Below, one piece after another: positions 41,462 to 51,130 of a stretch of 64,000 nt of DNA. The DNA is from Ammoniphilus oxalaticus (GTDB lineage: Bacteria; Bacillota; Bacilli; Aneurinibacillales; RAOX-1), in the NCBI RefSeq assembly GCF_003609605.1, contig NZ_MCHY01000009.1:268523-332522 (forward strand). The letters run 5' to 3'. The translations under genes were made by a program, and so were the position numbers. Under the pieces are notes generated by a model, which worked only from the letters and a program-made list of their open reading frames with translations, had not been told where the DNA came from and did no database searches. How positions within the stretch are numbered: position 1 is the stretch's first letter; every line of letters starts with the position of its first letter.

Positions 41462-42487
41462 TTAAAAAAAGTGTCGGTATTGCCGCGGAATACTAGTTTC
41501 CTCCCCAAGTATACGGGCGGCCCGAATGGTCCAGTACGGATCACGTAATAATTCCCTGCCAATCGCGACTAAATCCGCATCGTCATTCGCAATGACTGAC
41601 TGGGCCAAATCGGGACTTTCCAACATGCCGACGGCAATAACAGGGATCGATACAGCTTCGCGAATCGCCCGAGCAAATGGAACCTGGTAACCAGGATAAT
41701 TACCTGGCTTTTTCTCTCCCGCTACCCCTTCACCGCCTGAACTTACGTGAAACAAATCAACACCCGCTTCTTTATAAGCGCGACAAAGTTTGATCGCATG
41801 ATCAAGTTCATAACCGCCATCCGCATACTCAATAGCAGAAATTCTAAAAATAAGAGGCATGTCCGATGGCATTTCACGCTTCATCGCTTGAATCACTTCC
41901 ACACCAAATCGCTCTAAATCACGTCCATATTCATCATCTCTTTGGTTCGTTAACGGTGATTGAAATTGATGAATTAAATAACCGTGAGCTCCGTGAATTT
42001 CGAGCACATCCACTCCCGCTTGGACTGCGCGTCTAGCGGCTTCCGCATAAAGTTGTACCGTCTCTTTTACTTCACCTGTCGTTAATGCCCGTGGTTGTTT
42101 ATAATCAGGACCAGGAAATCGAAGGGGTGAGGGAGCGACGGGTTGCCCAGCATCCTCAGCTTTACGGCCTGCGTGAGCAATTTGAATTCCAATCTTTGCC
42201 CCATGTTGCTGGACCGCCTTAATAATTCGAGAAAAGGCGGGAATTTGGTCATCAGACCACAAGCCAAGATCATAATCGGAGATTCGCCCATCAGGCTCTA
42301 CATCTGTCATCTCCATAATGATGAGACCGACGCCACCAACAGCGCGACTAACATAATGCGTATAATGCCAGTCATTCGGAACACCATCTTTCGCCGCAAC
42401 AGAATACTGGCACATTGGAGCCATGACAACCCTATTTTTTAACTCAAGACCTTTAATTGAAAAAGGGGAAAATAAATGATTTGACAA
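41462..42487 (-). CDS. namA: NADPH dehydrogenase NamA/YqjM (old yellow enzyme)
   Basis: FMN enzyme that reduces activated C=C bonds with NADPH. 341 residues, TIM barrel. Seen: APMCQYS (the Cys/Tyr pair typical of the YqjM class), the substrate-binding histidines in EIHGAHGYLIHQFQSP, RISAIEYADGGYE, and the C-terminal IPRQYRHFF with the arginine finger. The TTG at 42487 sits eight bases after AGGAG; a GTG nine bases earlier overlaps that ribosome site. Likely role: detoxifying enones or xenobiotics. Confidence 0.93.
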   Translation of the reverse strand: MSNHLFSPFSIKGLELKNRVVMAPMCQYSVAAKDGVPNDWHYTHYVSRAVGGVGLIIMEMTDVEPDGRISDYDLGLWSDDQIPAFSRIIKAVQQHGAKIGIQIAHAGRKAEDAGQPVAPSPLRFPGPDYKQPRALTTGEVKETVQLYAEAARRAVQAGVDVLEIHGAHGYLIHQFQSPLTNQRDDEYGRDLERFGVEVIQAMKREMPSDMPLIFRISAIEYADGGYELDHAIKLCRAYKEAGVDLFHVSSGGEGVAGEKKPGNYPGYQVPFARAIREAVSIPVIAVGMLESPDLAQSVIANDDADLVAIGRELLRDPYWTIRAARILGEETSIPRQYRHFF

Positions 42488-42595
42488 AACTAACACTCCT
42501 CATCATTTTTCAAGGATTTTCATCATCCACATGTAGTTTACCTAGCTGCATTCGACAATACAAACAAAGATCCTCTCTACCTATAAACCTCTTAC

Positions 42596-43408
42596 TTATA
42601 CAATAACAGAGCGGTTATGAGGAAACATCGGGATTGCCGTAAGCAATGCTTGTGTATAGGGGTGCTGCGGTGATTCGAGCACCTTTTTTGTCGGACCGAT
42701 TTCTACGATTTCACCTTTATATAGAACAGCCAGTCGATCACACAAATACGAAACTGTCGATAAATCATGAGATATATAGAGCATCGTCAATTTAAACGTG
42801 TCATTCAACTGTTTTAGTAAATGTAAAATCCCAGCCCGTATGGAAACGTCTAGCATGGACACGGGTTCATCTGCGACAAGGAACCGCGGATTCAACACAA
42901 TTGCCCTCGCGATCGCAATGCGTTGCAATTGCCCTCCACTTAATTCATGTGGAAAGCGATTGATATAATCCTCTACCGGGCTTAGCTCTACTTGAGCGAG
43001 AGTTTCATATACCTTTTTTCTAATCTGTTCTTTCTGCCTCCATCCATGGATGCGAAGCGGTTCAGCAATCGTATCAAATACAGTGAATGAAGGATGCATC
43101 GTTTCATATGGATCTTGAAAAACCATTTGGATATCTCGTCTCATTTGTTTCCTAGCTTTTTTACTTACAGTAGAGAGGTTTTTACCCGCGAACATAACAT
43201 GACCTTCCGTTGGTTTTTCAAGTTGAAGAATAATCTCACCGAGCGTTGATTTTCCAGATCCGCTTTGCCCGACAAGACCAATAATTTCACCCTCTTTAAT
43301 CGAAAGAGAAACATCGCGGAGCGCCTCCACCCCTTTACCTTTTCCTCTTAAAGGAAATGAAGTTGGGTATTGTTTTGTAATCTGTTTTAATTCAAGCAAT
43401 GGACCCAT
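42596..43408 (-). CDS. Peptide ABC transporter ATPase, OppF/DppF type
   Basis: 270 residues. Walker A GLVGQSGSGKST, signature LSGGQLQRIAIARA, Walker B FLVADEPVSMLD and the H-loop ISHDLSTV. Together with the OppD-type ATPase upstream it powers the importer. The C-terminal SPQHPYTQALLTAIPM element is typical of OppF. Last gene of the five-gene transporter, four bases after the previous one. Confidence 0.93.
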   Translation of the reverse strand: MGPLLELKQITKQYPTSFPLRGKGKGVEALRDVSLSIKEGEIIGLVGQSGSGKSTLGEIILQLEKPTEGHVMFAGKNLSTVSKKARKQMRRDIQMVFQDPYETMHPSFTVFDTIAEPLRIHGWRQKEQIRKKVYETLAQVELSPVEDYINRFPHELSGGQLQRIAIARAIVLNPRFLVADEPVSMLDVSIRAGILHLLKQLNDTFKLTMLYISHDLSTVSYLCDRLAVLYKGEIVEIGPTKKVLESPQHPYTQALLTAIPMFPHNRSVIV

Positions 43409-43411
43409 GCT

Positions 43412-44416
43412 CTACCTCCGTCTTTCCCAAGTGGCTATTTCCTTAGCCTCCCTACGAAATCGTTGCGCTTCACTCACATAATGACAAGCCACTTTGTGTC
43501 CCTCGGCAATTTGCTGTAATTTTGGTTCAACACTTACACATTTATCCGATACAAATGGACACCTTTCATGAAACTGACAACCTTTGCTTAGTTCGGTCAA
43601 TTTTGGAGGCATCCCCGGAATCGTAATCAATGCCTCCCCATTCATTGAAAAGTTTGGCGAGGCATACTGTAGCCCTATTGAATAAGGATGTGAGGCTCTC
43701 GCGAGAAACTGTTCCATCCTACATGTCTCCATAATCTTCCCGCCATACATGACGACAATCGTATGACAAAAGCTTGAAACCAGCGCGAGATCGTGAGATA
43801 TAAAGAGTAAAGCGCTGTTCAATGCTTCTTGCATTGTCCTTAATTTATGTAGAATATTTTGCTGGACAATCACATCCAAGGCTGTTGTAGGTTCATCCGC
43901 AATAATGAGCGTCGGCTGCAACATAAGCGTCATCGCGATAATAATACGTTGTTTCATGCCACCGCTTAATTGGTGAGGATAATCATTGAGATGCCTTTCA
44001 TGAATGTCAACCGAATGAATCGCCGCTCGAATCGTTTCAAGCGCCTTTTTCTTTGGCATGCTTGTATGTTCATACAACAGTTCAATTAGTTGATCCCGTA
44101 TGCGATGAACTGGATTCAGCGCATTCATTGCATTTTGCGGAATAAAAGCAATCTCTTTCCCGCGTTTTTTTCTCATCTGTTCTTTACTTAGCGCTAACAA
44201 ATCTTCGCCATCTAACAAAATTTGTCCACTTGAAATAACCGCATTGGGGCTTAGTAGCCTTAATAAAGCGCGGGCAAGTGTTGTCTTGCCACACCCACTT
44301 TCACCCACAAGGCCAAGACGCTCCCCTCTTCGAATTTTCATTGATAAGTTTTGAATGACATATGCTTTGTTATTGTCTCTTTTATAATTTACATAAAGAT
44401 CGTTCACCTGGAGCAT
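43412..44416 (-). CDS. Peptide ABC transporter ATPase, OppD/DppD type
   Basis: 334 residues. Walker A GLVGESGCGKTT, signature LSGGMKQRIIIAMT, Walker B LIIADEPTTALD. The C-terminal part has the oligopeptide-ATPase tail with four cysteines (CQFHERCPFVSDKC and CHYVSE), which binds a 4Fe-4S cluster in some family members. It starts two bases after the permease stop. Confidence 0.93.
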   Translation of the reverse strand: MLQVNDLYVNYKRDNNKAYVIQNLSMKIRRGERLGLVGESGCGKTTLARALLRLLSPNAVISSGQILLDGEDLLALSKEQMRKKRGKEIAFIPQNAMNALNPVHRIRDQLIELLYEHTSMPKKKALETIRAAIHSVDIHERHLNDYPHQLSGGMKQRIIIAMTLMLQPTLIIADEPTTALDVIVQQNILHKLRTMQEALNSALLFISHDLALVSSFCHTIVVMYGGKIMETCRMEQFLARASHPYSIGLQYASPNFSMNGEALITIPGMPPKLTELSKGCQFHERCPFVSDKCVSVEPKLQQIAEGHKVACHYVSEAQRFRREAKEIATWERRR

Positions 44417-44417
44417 C

Positions 44418-45296
44418 TTACGACCTCCTTTTAAGCCTAGGATGAATCACTTCTTCAAATGAGCGCGTTAAAAAAAAGATAGACAACAATAATAAAACAA
44501 TCGCTATTCCAGGTGGCGCAACCCACCACCATGCTGTTTGAGAATGACCTGTTAAAAAATTTGTATGTAAAATTTGCCCCCAACTAATCACATTAGGGTC
44601 TCCAAGTCCGAGAAAAGACACACTTGCTTCTGTCATAATAGCTGAATTAACGATAAATGCCATTTCAAGTAACGCAATCGGTAACACACTTGGTAAAATA
44701 TAACGAACCATAATCCGAAGATGCCCTGCCCCACTTACGATTGCCGCTTTAATGAAAGGTCGCTTTGCAATTGTTAACACTTGGGACCGAATGATACGAG
44801 CTACGGTTCTCCAACTCAGCAATGAAATAGCCAAAATAACATTCCAAATCGAAGGCTTTAATAGAGCAACTAATACAATGACAAATGGAATAAAAGGAAT
44901 TGCATAAAATACATCAACAATTCTCATCAAAATGATATCTGTTATTCCCCCGAAGTAACCCGAAATAAGTCCCACCATCACTCCTACAAATGTCACTAAT
45001 AGAGCAGCAATAAACCCGACAGAAATTGCCGTTCGTGTTCCAAAAATAACCTGACTGAATAAATCACGACCAATATTGGTCGTACCAAATGGATGTTCAA
45101 TCGAAGGAGTATATAGTTTTTTGATTTCACCATTTTCTGCGCGAATGATTTCATAGGCGTCATAAGGCGCTAGAAAATTTGCAAAGATGGCTACGATAAG
45201 AAAAAGAAGCAACAGAATTAATCCAATAAGCGCAAATGGATCTTTTAAGATGCGTCTTACTAATTGGTTTTTGCTCGCTTTCCGAACTGTTATCAT
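44418..45296 (-). CDS. Peptide ABC transporter permease, DppC type
   Basis: About 292 residues with six membrane segments. EAA-loop motif near the middle (KAAIVSGAGHLRIMVRYILP) and the usual DppC start (DPFALIGLILLLLFLIVA). The ATG at 45296 has a GCGGGT upstream; a TTG at 45341 would extend the protein by 15 residues. Pairs with the DppB-type permease upstream. Confidence 0.9.
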   Translation of the reverse strand: MITVRKASKNQLVRRILKDPFALIGLILLLLFLIVAIFANFLAPYDAYEIIRAENGEIKKLYTPSIEHPFGTTNIGRDLFSQVIFGTRTAISVGFIAALLVTFVGVMVGLISGYFGGITDIILMRIVDVFYAIPFIPFVIVLVALLKPSIWNVILAISLLSWRTVARIIRSQVLTIAKRPFIKAAIVSGAGHLRIMVRYILPSVLPIALLEMAFIVNSAIMTEASVSFLGLGDPNVISWGQILHTNFLTGHSQTAWWWVAPPGIAIVLLLLSIFFLTRSFEEVIHPRLKRRS

Positions 45297-45396
45297 ATCA
45301 AAACCCGCTTCCACTTTAATCAGTTTCCTATTGCGCGGCAATTCATCGTATCATTAAAACGCCTCCAACTACAGATCGTGTAGTGATGGAATAGAA

Positions 45397-46368
45397 TCAC
45401 TTATATGTAATACGCGGATCGAGAAACGCATAAATAATATCAGCAAACACATTCATCATCATAATCAGGCCCGCCATTAATAAAAAAGCAGTTTGAGCAA
45501 GTGGATAATCATGACGCTGGGCAGCTAAAATCATTTCTTGACCTAACCCTGGCCAACTAAACACGTACTCAATCATCACTTGTCCACCAAGAGCTGAACC
45601 TATAAATAACGCGCCTGCTGTCACAACGGGTAAAAGCGCATTGCGCATCGCATGATGAAATAAAATTCTTCTCTCTCGTAATCCTTTTGCTCGCGCCATT
45701 TCAATGTAATCTTCGCCCAACACATCAATCATCGTATTCCTCATCAGTAATAGCGGGGTCGCTAAATAAAATAAACCCGTCACAATAGTTGGTAACAGAA
45801 GATGCCTCAAAAAATCAACAGAGAAAAACAAATCAAATGAATGTTTTGCATCATAACCCGGTGAGCGAATCCCTGAATGAGGAAGCCAACCAAGCGTAAC
45901 GGAGAAGACATAAATGGCAAGCAGCCCAACCCAAAAGGTTGGCGCTGAACGAAAAATTAAGGCAAAGGTTGTCCAAAAAAGATCCAAAAAAGATCCCCTT
46001 TTCCAAGCAATCAAGGCCCCGCCAAAAACCCCAAATCCATAAGCAACAACCATCGAGGAAAACATGAGGATAATCGTAGCGAGAAATTTATCGCTTAATA
46101 CAGCAAGTGTAGAGCGTTTATAATAAAAAGATTGTCCGAAATCAAATTTGAGTAGATCTTGTAAAAAAATGAGATATTGCGACCAGATACTCTGGTCCAG
46201 ACCATACTGTTTAATCACCTGGTCGCGCGCTTCTTTCGCAATGGATGGGTCAATCAAAGCAGCAGTCATATCCCCAGGCATAAGACGAAACATAAAAAAA
46301 ATCAATGTCGCCACGACAAGAAGCGTGATTAGGGATTGGATGAACCTTTTAACGATAAAGGAAACCAT
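45397..46368 (-). CDS. Peptide ABC transporter permease, DppB type
   Basis: 323 residues with six membrane segments; start MVSFIVKRFIQSLITLLVVA is typical. The EAA motif reads EMARAKGLRERRILFHHAMR, and RMRP-like FRLMPGDM lies in the first periplasmic part. It is separated by 159 bases and a hairpin from the binding-protein gene. Confidence 0.92.
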   Translation of the reverse strand: MVSFIVKRFIQSLITLLVVATLIFFMFRLMPGDMTAALIDPSIAKEARDQVIKQYGLDQSIWSQYLIFLQDLLKFDFGQSFYYKRSTLAVLSDKFLATIILMFSSMVVAYGFGVFGGALIAWKRGSFLDLFWTTFALIFRSAPTFWVGLLAIYVFSVTLGWLPHSGIRSPGYDAKHSFDLFFSVDFLRHLLLPTIVTGLFYLATPLLLMRNTMIDVLGEDYIEMARAKGLRERRILFHHAMRNALLPVVTAGALFIGSALGGQVMIEYVFSWPGLGQEMILAAQRHDYPLAQTAFLLMAGLIMMMNVFADIIYAFLDPRITYK

Positions 46369-46489: not shown

Positions 46490-46519
46490 AATGGCAGTCA
46501 AAAAAGTTTTGACCGCCAT
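46490..46519 (-). terminator. Hairpin between the binding-protein gene and the permease genes
   Basis: Arms AATGGCAGTCAAAA / TTTTGACCGCCATT (one mismatch), directly after the binding-protein stop. Probably a partial terminator or 3'-protecting structure that raises binding-protein over permease levels. Confidence 0.7.
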
Positions 46520-46527
46520 TTCACATG

Positions 46528-48168
46528 TTAGTTTACAGGTAATCTCAATTTACCTTCTGAATCCCAATTGTACCCAGCTTCACGCAAGATGTCGCGCGCT
46601 TTTTTAGGATCAAAAATAGGTTGATGCGCTGCTGGATTGTGCCAAAATTCATTCGCAGGCTGAATCACTAATCCTGGCCCGCCTTTCGTTCCATACCCTT
46701 CCAAATAAACATCTAAAATCGTATCATAATCAATCGTCAAAGCAAGCGCCTGACGAAACGCTTCATTGTCAAATGGAGCTCTTCGTAAGTTTAGCCCTAA
46801 ATATTCAAACCCGATATCAGCTACTTCAATCGTACTTATGTGTTCAATGTTCTCCGCTTGTTGAATGTGGGCTGAAATTAGACGATCAGCATGCGTATCA
46901 ATTTCTCCTGTTCGTAATGCGGACAAGACCGCTTCAGGCTGACCATATACACGATAAATATACCCATCCACGTTAATATTATTATAATAATCAGGGTTTC
47001 GCGATACCTTCAGTTCCTCGCCTCGTCTCCAGTATTCAAAGACAAAGGGCCCACTGCCTATCGGCTCTAAGTTAGCAAAATCCAACGGATTCCCCTCAAC
47101 CTTTTCCCATATATGCTTAGGCAAAATTGGAATTTGCGTTAATGTCGCTGTAATAAATGGAGCATACGCCTCAGTCAAATGGAATCGAATCGTTTCTCCT
47201 CCAAGTAATTCAATGGACTCAATTGGTTCCAAAAAGGCTTGTAAATAACCGTCGTTCCATTTATCCATGAATTCATAAGAGAATTTAACATCCTCCACTG
47301 TTACCGGCTTTCCATCATGGAATGTCATATTCGGCCGCAGAAAAACGTCTATCGTCTTGTCATTAACAACTTCCCAATTGGCGGCAGCTGATGGGACAGG
47401 TTCTATTTGTGGATTCAGCCGCACAAGCTTATCGTAAATTTGCCGTAACTGGCGCCAATCAAAAACACTTTTTGCCGCGATCGGATTCAGTGTATCCAAA
47501 TCTTGAATTCCGCCGATCTTTAACCATTTATCATCGGTAAGCGGCTCCGCTTCAGTCGGCATCCATTCGTTGAATACTCCTTCTCCGGCCATCGCAGGCA
47601 ATTCATTAAACCGTTCATGGTTATACGCATGAACGAGCGTATTAGAGTATAAGCTGACGACCGGAACTTCATCCGCTAGTATTTCTTGAGCTTTAAAAAC
47701 GAGATCCCGCCGTTTTTCAGGATCCATTTCATGACGTTGATCCTTTGAATACTTGTCGTACTCTTCATTGACAAGTCCTGTTGTATTACTTCCGCCAGGA
47801 CCTGCAAGTGAGGAATGAAAAATAGTATATGTAAACATATCAGGATCAAGTCTTTCTACTCGCCCAGAATAGCCAATCGTAAACGCATCATAATCTCGTT
47901 CATCCGGCGCCCACAAACGATCAACTTTCGCATGAAAATCCATCGGCTGAACAGTCACATCCACCCCGAGCTTCTTCCACTCTTCTGAAATCATTTTCAT
48001 CGCTTCGTATGTTATGTAATTTTCCTCCGGCGTAGCTGTGAGTACAGTAAATGAAGGCGCCAATTCACCCAACTCATCATCGGCTACCTTTTCCCCTTTT
48101 TCAGACGAGCAACCAACAAGAGCGAAGATAAGTACAAGTAATAGCAAATATCTTTCTTTCCTAAACAA
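46528..48168 (-). CDS. Peptide-type ABC solute-binding lipoprotein, family 5, circularly permuted
   Basis: 546 residues. Lipoprotein signal with lipobox LVGC (C20). What follows is in an unusual order. Residues about 35-200 (FTVLTATPEENYITYEAMKM, RDYDAFTIGYSGRVERLDPD, AQEILADEVPVVSLYSN) are the part that normally ends a family-5 binding protein. Residues about 215-546 (KIGGIQDLDTLNP, FHDGKPVTVEDVKFSYEF, EPIGSGPFVFEYWRRGEE, APFDNEAFRQALALTIDYDT) are the normal beginning and middle, and the protein stops at FDPKKARDILREAGYNWDSE plus ten residues, exactly where the displaced segment would usually follow. All lobes are therefore present but rotated. Start is a TTG with AGGGGG eight bases before it. 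First gene of the transporter. Confidence 0.88.
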   Translation of the reverse strand: MFRKERYLLLLVLIFALVGCSSEKGEKVADDELGELAPSFTVLTATPEENYITYEAMKMISEEWKKLGVDVTVQPMDFHAKVDRLWAPDERDYDAFTIGYSGRVERLDPDMFTYTIFHSSLAGPGGSNTTGLVNEEYDKYSKDQRHEMDPEKRRDLVFKAQEILADEVPVVSLYSNTLVHAYNHERFNELPAMAGEGVFNEWMPTEAEPLTDDKWLKIGGIQDLDTLNPIAAKSVFDWRQLRQIYDKLVRLNPQIEPVPSAAANWEVVNDKTIDVFLRPNMTFHDGKPVTVEDVKFSYEFMDKWNDGYLQAFLEPIESIELLGGETIRFHLTEAYAPFITATLTQIPILPKHIWEKVEGNPLDFANLEPIGSGPFVFEYWRRGEELKVSRNPDYYNNINVDGYIYRVYGQPEAVLSALRTGEIDTHADRLISAHIQQAENIEHISTIEVADIGFEYLGLNLRRAPFDNEAFRQALALTIDYDTILDVYLEGYGTKGGPGLVIQPANEFWHNPAAHQPIFDPKKARDILREAGYNWDSEGKLRLPVN

Positions 48169-48465: not shown

Positions 48466-48542
48466 TGGCGGCCCCGAGAGGATTCGAACCTCCGACTCAC
48501 AGTTTAGGAAACTGCAGCTCTATCCGACTGAGCTACGGGGCC
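48466..48542 (-). tRNA. tRNA-Arg (anticodon CCT)
   Basis: Minus strand, 77 bases with encoded CCA. Acceptor GGCCCCG / CGGGGCC, D arm with AGCTCAGTCGGATAGAGCT, anticodon stem CAGT/ACTG around loop TTCCTAA (anticodon CCT, reads AGG), T arm GGAGG-TTCGAAT-CCTC. Stands alone; no tRNA cluster around it. Confidence 0.96.
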
Positions 48543-49243: not shown

Positions 49244-49285
49244 TTGACATTTCTTTTGTACCTGTGTACTATGTTATTAGTACAC
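49244..49285 (+). promoter_or_regulatory. Promoter and palindromic operator of the GntR/ABC operon
   Basis: -35 TTGACA (49244-49249), 17-base spacer, -10 TACTAT (49267-49272). A perfect inverted repeat GTGTACTA-N6-TAGTACAC (49264-49285) covers the -10 box and the start point. Its size and place fit an operator of the YtrA-type GntR repressor encoded in the same operon. Confidence 0.8.
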
Positions 49286-49314
49286 TAATTCACAGATACA
49301 AAGGAGTGTGTTTT

Positions 49315-50067
49315 ATGAATCCATGGACTGGATTATTGAGAAAAGAGTTTCGTCTAGGAAGAACAGGGGTGCTGATCGCACTATTAGTCATGGCGATATA
49401 TATCGGTTTTTCTATCTATCTCTCCTGGAAAACGCTACCAGGGGTTTTAATTGGTATGTCGTTTATGTTAATTATGGCTCATATTTTCTATCTTCCATTT
49501 TATGTTGGATTTAGTCTTCACAGAGAAAAGCATACGATGCACCATTGGCTACACAATCCGCTATCAGGAAACGCGCTGCTTACAGCAAAATTTATTAACG
49601 GACTTGTCTCCTTTTGCTTCTCACTGTTTATTGCTTGTCTTTTCTTCCTATATGCTTGGTGGACGAACAAAAGGCTGTCAGATGAATTACTCATCCCTTT
49701 TCAAGATGTCATCGGAACGGGCGGGTTCATTTTGGTCCACATCATCCTCTTTGCTATCTATCTAACCCTGTGGACATTAATGCTCTCTATGCTAGAACTT
49801 GTAACCAAACAAAAACTCGGCAAGTGGAGAGGCGTGATTGCTGTTGCGATCATTTTATTCGGTCCAAGATTGTGGGCAACACTCGAGGCAACTTCGTTAT
49901 ATCATTTCTTAACACAGTGGGGTCCGATCTATTTGGCAAACACACACATGATGATTCCCCAAATTAAGGTGGTTTATGTTGGATTTTATATCTTCCATCT
50001 CATCATCGCGATCATGCTCTTTGCTCTCTCAAGTTGGATGTTGGACCGTAAGGTGGAGATTATGTAA
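49315..50067 (+). CDS. ABC-2 type membrane protein
   Basis: 250 residues with six membrane segments (GVLIALLVMAIYIGFSIYLS, AHIFYLPFYVGFSLH and so on). Family of YtrC/YtrD-like permeases encoded with YtrA-type regulators. AAGGAG lies eight bases before the ATG at 49315. Overlaps the start of the regulator gene by one base. With the ATPase downstream it forms an exporter or bacitracin/antibiotic-type resistance or sensing system; substrate unknown. Confidence 0.82.
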   Translation: MNPWTGLLRKEFRLGRTGVLIALLVMAIYIGFSIYLSWKTLPGVLIGMSFMLIMAHIFYLPFYVGFSLHREKHTMHHWLHNPLSGNALLTAKFINGLVSFCFSLFIACLFFLYAWWTNKRLSDELLIPFQDVIGTGGFILVHIILFAIYLTLWTLMLSMLELVTKQKLGKWRGVIAVAIILFGPRLWATLEATSLYHFLTQWGPIYLANTHMMIPQIKVVYVGFYIFHLIIAIMLFALSSWMLDRKVEIM

Positions 50068-50444
50068 TGAATGAGGATTTCAATCCAGATCAACCGATCT
50101 ACCTGCAGTTGGCCGAACGAATTAGTTATCGGATCACACGCAAAGAACTTGGTCTCGGGGCCAAACTTCCTTCTGTGCGTGAGATGGCGATTCAAGCAAG
50201 CGTGAACCCAAATACGGTCCAAAGGGCGTACAGTGAATTGGAAAGGAAGGGCATCGTGGAAACGAAAAGAGGGCAAGGCACTTTTGTAACCAAGGATGAT
50301 TTCGTCTTAACCAAGTTAAGAGAAACATTAAAGCAGGAGCAAATTGTAAATTTCGTCAACGATATGCGAAACATGGGCTATAGCGATGAAGAAATGATCA
50401 ATGGATTGGAACATTATTTCCAAAAGGGGGGAATTAACAAGTGA
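50067..50444 (+). CDS. GntR-family regulator, YtrA type
   Basis: 125 residues: winged helix domain (PIYLQLAERISYRITRKELG, LPSVREMAIQASVNPNTVQR, GTFVTKDD) followed by a short helical tail for dimer formation, without a ligand domain, as in the YtrA subgroup. Such regulators repress their own ABC operon. Starts within the stop of the permease gene and its stop overlaps the ATPase start, so the three genes are coupled. Confidence 0.92.
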   Translation: MNEDFNPDQPIYLQLAERISYRITRKELGLGAKLPSVREMAIQASVNPNTVQRAYSELERKGIVETKRGQGTFVTKDDFVLTKLRETLKQEQIVNFVNDMRNMGYSDEEMINGLEHYFQKGGINK

Positions 50445-51130
50445 TTGAATTTAAGCAAGTATCAAAACGATATGGATCGAAAAAGGCCCTAAAGGATATT
50501 TCATTTACTTTGCCAGCTGGTAAAATCATAGGTGTGATTGGCGAAAATGGAAGCGGCAAATCAACCACATTGAAACTAATCGCAGGATTAGCTAAACCGA
50601 CATCAGGAACTATTACAATCGACGGTCAGCCGGTTACCCGCAGAAGCTGCCGATACGTTTCCTATCTTTCAGATTCGGATCAATTTTATCCCTTTTTCAC
50701 CATAGGCGATATGATTGACTTTTATCAGTCTCAATTCGCTGACTTTCAAGTAGAGAAGGCGAACGAAATCCTGACATTCATGAAATTAGATCGAACTCAA
50801 AAGATAAATAGCCTGTCAAAGGGGAATCGCGGTCGCTTAAAGATTACGTTAAGTCTTGCCCGCGATGTTCCAATTATCTTAATGGATGAACCGCTGGCTG
50901 GACTGGATCCAATGGTTCGAGATTCAATTATTCGCGGACTCATTTCCTACATTGATATTGAAAAGCAAACAGTTTTGATAACAACGCATGAGGTGGAAGA
51001 AGTAGAACCGATTCTTGATACGATGATGGCGATAAGAGACGGTGAACTTCTCTGTATTCAAGATGTGGAAGAATTGCGAGAGCAAGAAAAAACGGGAATC
51101 CTTGAGTGGATGAAACGAGTATATCAATAA
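50441..51130 (+). CDS. ABC transporter ATPase
   Basis: 229 residues. Walker A GVIGENGSGKST, Walker B VPIILMDEPLAGLDP, and H-loop TTHEVEEVEP. The signature motif reads LSKGNRGRLKITLSLA, normal for the YtrB/bacitracin-type group. GTG start overlapping the regulator stop (GTGA). Last gene of the operon, before a strong terminator. Confidence 0.93.
   Translation: MIEFKQVSKRYGSKKALKDISFTLPAGKIIGVIGENGSGKSTTLKLIAGLAKPTSGTITIDGQPVTRRSCRYVSYLSDSDQFYPFFTIGDMIDFYQSQFADFQVEKANEILTFMKLDRTQKINSLSKGNRGRLKITLSLARDVPIILMDEPLAGLDPMVRDSIIRGLISYIDIEKQTVLITTHEVEEVEPILDTMMAIRDGELLCIQDVEELREQEKTGILEWMKRVYQ

Follow-up and report, generated by a model that had tools for sequence, protein, structure and literature searches.

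The gene considered here is an open reading frame (ORF 46528-48168, minus strand) in a window of 64,000 nucleotides from Ammoniphilus oxalaticus, the window being the whole stretch of DNA that was analysed. Its product is, by homology, a solute-binding protein (SBP) of family 5 in which the canonical order of the parts is broken, and because it belongs to this family without having that order, it is best filed in a permuted subfamily. On the basis of sequence comparison and structure modelling, it is predicted, with a probability of roughly 93%, to be the working SBP of an Opp/Dpp-type importer and to belong, within the cluster C (type II) SBPs, to a circularly permuted subfamily that is ancient and arose only once. 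The computed support consists of the order of the parts, their completeness, a cut that is identical in 73 proteins, the grouping of these proteins in one clade, the co-inheritance of a permease, a conserved operon and a confidently predicted fold.

The match to the Pfam domain SBP_bac_5 (PF00496) scores 234.7 bits, against a cut-off (gathering score) of 32.4, and is split in two pieces, the larger of which places residues 256-542 on positions 1-287 of the 368 positions of the profile. The same division is found with PDB entry 5u4o (residues 216-533 on chain positions 46-359, residues 51-168 on 373-484), with AppA (PDB 1xoc; residues 266-536 on 75-346, residues 39-175 on 359-488) and with a profile built from 18 ordinary SBPs (residues 23-203 on profile positions 365-502, residues 200-544 on 38-362). 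The moved segment (residues 37-205) corresponds to what is the C-terminal part in ordinary SBPs, that is, a part of domain 2 and the return to domain 1; the remainder (residues 206-546) corresponds to the N-terminal and middle parts, and ends in the loop that ordinarily leads into the moved segment. The old C-terminus and the old N-terminus are joined by a short linker at residues 196-215. Every domain part of the ordinary-SBP profile is present once, with no duplicate and no large gap. A first-pass annotation of the window had proposed this order, with boundaries at about 35-200 and 215-546, single presence of every part and a stop exactly where the moved segment would usually follow; the two-piece matches agree with the order, the ordinary-SBP profile and the rotation scan described below place the boundaries as proposed, and neither of the two profile pieces is doubled.

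When the protein was rotated back, it gave a single match of 339 bits extending over profile positions 42-502, compared with 249 bits for the best single piece of the unrotated chain, which bears out the end-to-end colinear alignment to family-5 proteins that the annotation had named as a check. In a scan of rotation points, performed in steps of six, the score peaked at residues 187-205, which is the joint. A single colinear profile match after rotation was obtained for 48 of the 48 proteins tested. In profile-to-profile comparisons, the ordinary SBPs headed by one of the same genome (L002) gave 473 colinear columns with the rotated profile and 329 with the native one, and ordinary SBPs of other genomes covered the rotated profile from end to end (for example, positions 10-518 and 7-517 of 518 for genomes G036 and G399, respectively).

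A structure model was produced by AlphaFold2 using 48 relatives, and was confident throughout the mature chain (predicted local distance difference test, pLDDT, 92.6; predicted template-modelling score, pTM, 0.86). Foldseek comparison of this model with family-5 structures aligned 330-390 columns in nearly all top matches, with a template-modelling (TM) score of about 0.5; as Foldseek requires sequential order, the match obtained corresponds to the larger part of the permuted protein. The control, an ordinary SBP encoded in the same genome, aligned over 501-534 columns of the same PDB entries with TM scores up to 0.88, although its own model was poorer (pLDDT 75). No PDB chain with the full rotated order was found, either by sequence search of the PDB or by the Foldseek fold search. 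The sequence and fold matches listed were all of family-5 type II, with no type I fold of the MglB kind among them.

The order is not confined to Ammoniphilus. Among 151 related genomes, three full-length colinear matches in native order were found, at 53, 42 and 34% identity, and an alignment of the joint region searched against 84,980 species genomes detected 45 loci; 44 of these are permuted and one (L088) is an ordinary SBP. A scan of the genome collection with the single sequence gave zero matches, as the eight-residue patterns on which it relied left too little tolerance. Combining the loci of the joint scan with matches from further genomes and plasmids gave 73 distinct permuted ORFs, one of them truncated by a contig end; the C-terminal part comes first in all 73, the canonical order (N-terminal, middle, C-terminal part) being found in none, and the cut is at the same place in each. 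The members belong to Bacillota, Spirochaetota, Chloroflexota, Thermomicrobiota, Alphaproteobacteria and Myxococcota, to one metagenome-assembled genome (MAG) of Latescibacterota, and, in the archaea, to the haloarchaea Halalkalicoccus and Haladaptatus; the same order, which had been suggested for search in other Bacillales, was thus found there and far beyond. The spread is thin (4 of 399 Bacilli, 7 of 398 Bacillota and, in the order to which Aquibium belongs, 7 of 150 genomes), these counts being lower bounds because of the strict thresholds used. Plasmids of Halalkalicoccus jeotgali (L160) and Haladaptatus pallidirubidus (L163) carry a permuted SBP with a full operon, and that of H. jeotgali was typed as conjugative.

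Several observations were made on individual members. A deltaproteobacterial MAG (G404) encodes at least four permuted SBPs (L127, L128, L058 and L142), and the subfamily has therefore expanded there. The permuted SBP of the Latescibacterota MAG (L056) nests among spirochaete sequences, for which binning contamination or a recent transfer are possible explanations. The branch of the window gene (L044-L057) consists, judging by organism names, mostly of alkaliphiles and soda-lake MAGs (Evansella, Alkaliphilus, Anoxynatronum, Alkalispirochaeta), many of its members coming from alkaline or saline habitats. The annotated permuted copies that were looked at bear the generic name "ABC transporter substrate-binding protein" only.

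The cut lies in the loop between a helix at residues 521-530 and a strand now found at residues 40-44. On MppA, the PDB sequence search places it near chain position 354, inside domain 2, which comprises residues 288-506 (PMC6022919); the old termini are in domain 1a. Since the new termini are inside lobe 2, the tether of lipidated members would leave from lobe 2 and not from lobe 1, in agreement with the proposal of the first-pass annotation that the anchor would attach to a different place in the fold. A rotation of this kind has been described for TpMglB-2 (Tp0684) of Treponema pallidum, a "Type Ic / cluster Bc" sugar-binding protein with a natural circular permutation that was proposed to have arisen for membrane anchoring (PMC4990184). 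By analogy, the permutation studied here could have been selected for tethering, with the displacement of the anchor to the other lobe as its point: the anchor site does change lobe, and many members are lipoproteins. This explanation is considered as unlikely, because a rough scan detected a lipobox in about half of the 73 proteins, while most of the others, including those of alphaproteobacteria and Halanaerobiales, have Sec or Tat signals and share the same topology. With about half of the members devoid of a lipobox, lipidation is not needed to keep the topology, and the soluble members argue against the idea, derived from TpMglB-2, that anchoring is required for such rotations.

In a tree of the 73 permuted proteins (rotated back) and 51 ordinary SBPs, the permuted ones form one side of a single branch with a Shimodaira-Hasegawa-like approximate likelihood-ratio test (SH-aLRT) value of 100, and the same single clade was recovered in a tree of 52 rows. 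The N-terminal and middle part alone also gives the permuted clade with an SH-aLRT of 100. The first permease splits likewise (SH-aLRT 100; 49 permuted and 15 ordinary loci), from which it follows that the transporter was passed on as one unit. With 73 members in one clade, the rotated order is a stable inherited topology and not a single broken gene. As no root was placed in the trees and most of the ordinary sequences come from Bacilli, a second, independent permutation elsewhere is conceivable. The rotation would have originated once, by tandem duplication and trimming as the first-pass annotation had proposed, or by a similar duplication-and-trimming event, and would then have spread by descent and by horizontal transfer, the latter being suggested by the presence of members in distant phyla and on plasmids.

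Four points weigh against the reading of the protein as a complete, working SBP of single origin, or against the ligands proposed for it below: the completeness of both lobes is predicted from the sequence and from the confidence values of the model; the moved part alone recovers one permuted clade with weak support (SH-aLRT 65); no tandem-duplicated intermediate was seen among the open frames; and, as regards the ligand, only transporter genes adjoin the window copy, without any peptidase or hydantoinase. The second and third of these points would also fit a chimera whose first segment came from a different SBP gene, a possibility suggested for TpMglB-2 as well. Such an origin is nevertheless quite improbable here, since each segment taken alone gives the permuted proteins as one group, both segments match the profile cleanly and colinearly once rotated, and the guanine-plus-cytosine content is nearly equal in the two (0.428 and 0.427), with no compositional sign of a foreign piece. 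It would in any case alter the history and not the architecture, because a protein assembled from two family-5 sequences would be permuted all the same.

The operon (Table 1) is complete, with two permeases and two ATPases, and in this respect the intact oligopeptide-type operon of the first-pass annotation is confirmed, with the nuance that the second ATPase is short; downstream of it and up to the next gene, no remnant of its C-terminal region was found in other frames. The order SBP, permease, permease, ATPase, ATPase is present in most permuted loci with enough flanking sequence. SBPs can double as receptors, and the permuted protein might be a sensor or decoy that keeps its position in the operon without being a transporter subunit; the conserved gene order and the co-inherited permease clade make this very unlikely. 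An assembly error, a frameshift patch or a recent gene-breaking rearrangement was ruled out, as the same order and cut recur in 73 proteins from many genomes and laboratories and on complete plasmids, and the window gene has an open frame with a conserved motif and operon.

The permuted SBP would close on its ligand like other SBPs and pass it on to the permeases and ATPases of its operon. In Escherichia coli DppA, the dipeptide is bound by D436 and R383 (PMC12136057), and in MppA the amino group is bound by D439 (PMC6022919); these residues fall in the part that is moved in the permuted proteins. The permuted family carries a short insert, R-x-E-R-x-DPD, in the loop that in DppA contains the ligand Asp, and the motif common to the members is [GA]R-x-E-R-x-D-P-D. 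Within it, R106 is present in 52 of 52 aligned members and is located in a short insertion that ordinary SBPs do not have, and R103 is present in 49 of 52. A changed ligand chemistry, perhaps with recognition of acidic or amide groups, may result. Permease 1 has a periplasmic "scoop" loop close to its N-terminus, and an Asp was found in this loop in 43 of 43 bacterial partners (first set); this Asp was considered as a docking partner of the Arg motif and dropped, some ordinary permeases sharing this Asp and both archaeal partners being without it.

Gene neighbourhoods give some indication of the ligand. In the branch that includes Brevibacillus, Halanaerobiales, alphaproteobacteria and others, the permuted loci adjoin genes for Asp/Glu/hydantoin racemase, for M19, M20 and M28 peptidases, and for hydantoinase B or amidohydrolase, and the haloarchaeal copies adjoin creatininase-family, M20 or D-aminoacylase genes. 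Such loci for the use of peptides and hydantoins adjoin many permuted members and not the window copy, whose branch has mainly transporter genes as neighbours. From the neighbouring genes for peptidases, hydantoin racemases and hydantoinases, the candidate ligands retained were small peptides, or else amino-acid derivatives that are amides or resemble hydantoins, with about even chances of being right; the guess is weakest for the window gene, as its own operon has no such neighbour. A further, more doubtful proposal is that of a "cluster Cc", having a distinct pocket (with the Arg motif in place of the Asp that binds the amino group), a lobe-2 tether when lipidated, its own permease line, and substrates that the ordinary Opp/Dpp systems miss; if this were true, it would mean import of substrates such as hydantoins and D- or cyclic dipeptides.

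The permuted proteins have the same PF00496 domain and the same partners as the SBPs of the Opp, Dpp, App and Nik systems (AppA 1xoc, DppA 1dpp, 5u4o; NCBIfam Opp4A). They are colinear over their full length with ordinary cluster C SBPs once rotated back, and differ from them by the rotated chain and by new termini inside domain 2. With TpMglB-2 they share a natural permutation of an ABC (ATP-binding cassette) transporter binding protein that is lipidated and common to a family. The two cases are not homologous in cut or subfamily: TpMglB-2 has an MglB-like type I (cluster B) fold, whose first three strands have become C-terminal and whose hinge is crossed a fourth time, whereas the present family is of type II (cluster C), occurs in more phyla and in haloarchaea in the present data, and has a moved part that still matches by sequence. 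No description of permuted cluster C SBPs was found in the open-access literature searched, where the nearest natural case is TpMglB-2 and the others are engineered sensors.

Few bacterial proteins are as numerous as the peptide-type SBPs. A rotation of one origin, inherited across several phyla and two domains of life, would represent a stable and overlooked branch of a common uptake system, and a natural experiment on how folding, lobe closure and docking depend on the order of the chain, on its termini and on the place of the tether. Permuted SBPs are easily misread as fusions or fragments, since tools that expect one colinear match see two partial ones.

Table 1. Features of the putative permuted SBP gene and its operon (positions in the window)
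Feature	Position	Strand	Description or basis
Putative permuted family-5 solute-binding lipoprotein gene	46528..48168	(-)	546 amino acids, TTG start
Predicted signal peptide and lipobox LVGC, lipidated Cys at residue 20	48109..48168	(-)	sequence; hydrophobic-stretch and lipobox scan
Moved segment, residues 37-205	47554..48060	(-)	profile 365-502 of ordinary SBPs; 5u4o 373-484
Ordinary N-terminal and middle parts, residues 206-546	46531..47553	(-)	profile 38-362; 5u4o 46-359
Joint between the old C- and N-termini, residues 196-215	47524..47583	(-)	rotation-scan peak; alignment of 48 members
Subfamily motif GRVERLDPD, residues 102-110	47839..47865	(-)	member alignment
Terminator-like hairpin between SBP gene and permease 1	46490..46520	(-)	14 pairs
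Permease 1, OppB/DppB type	45397..46368	(-)	PF00528 and PF19300
Permease 2, OppC/DppC type	44418..45341	(-)	PF00528 and PF12911
ATPase 1	43412..44416	(-)	ABC_tran and oligo_HPY
ATPase 2	42596..43408	(-)	270 amino acids, without C-terminal oligo_HPY-type region

The reading frame of the SBP gene is open for 546 codons from its TTG start, and the sequence upstream of this start is AAGGGGGA. The hairpin that follows the gene would be consistent with partial termination, by which more SBP than permease would be made. In the upstream region examined, neither a riboswitch nor a T-box was found, and a tRNA alone is present there, namely a tRNA-Arg (anticodon CCT) at 48466-48542, just upstream of the SBP gene. 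At the other end of the operon, the gene next to ATPase 2 is an NADH:flavin oxidoreductase-like ORF (41462-42496). Genes for a membrane protein, a GntR-type regulator and an ABC ATPase stand in a row at 49264-51130, an arrangement which we take to resemble the YtrA-type operon of Bacillus.
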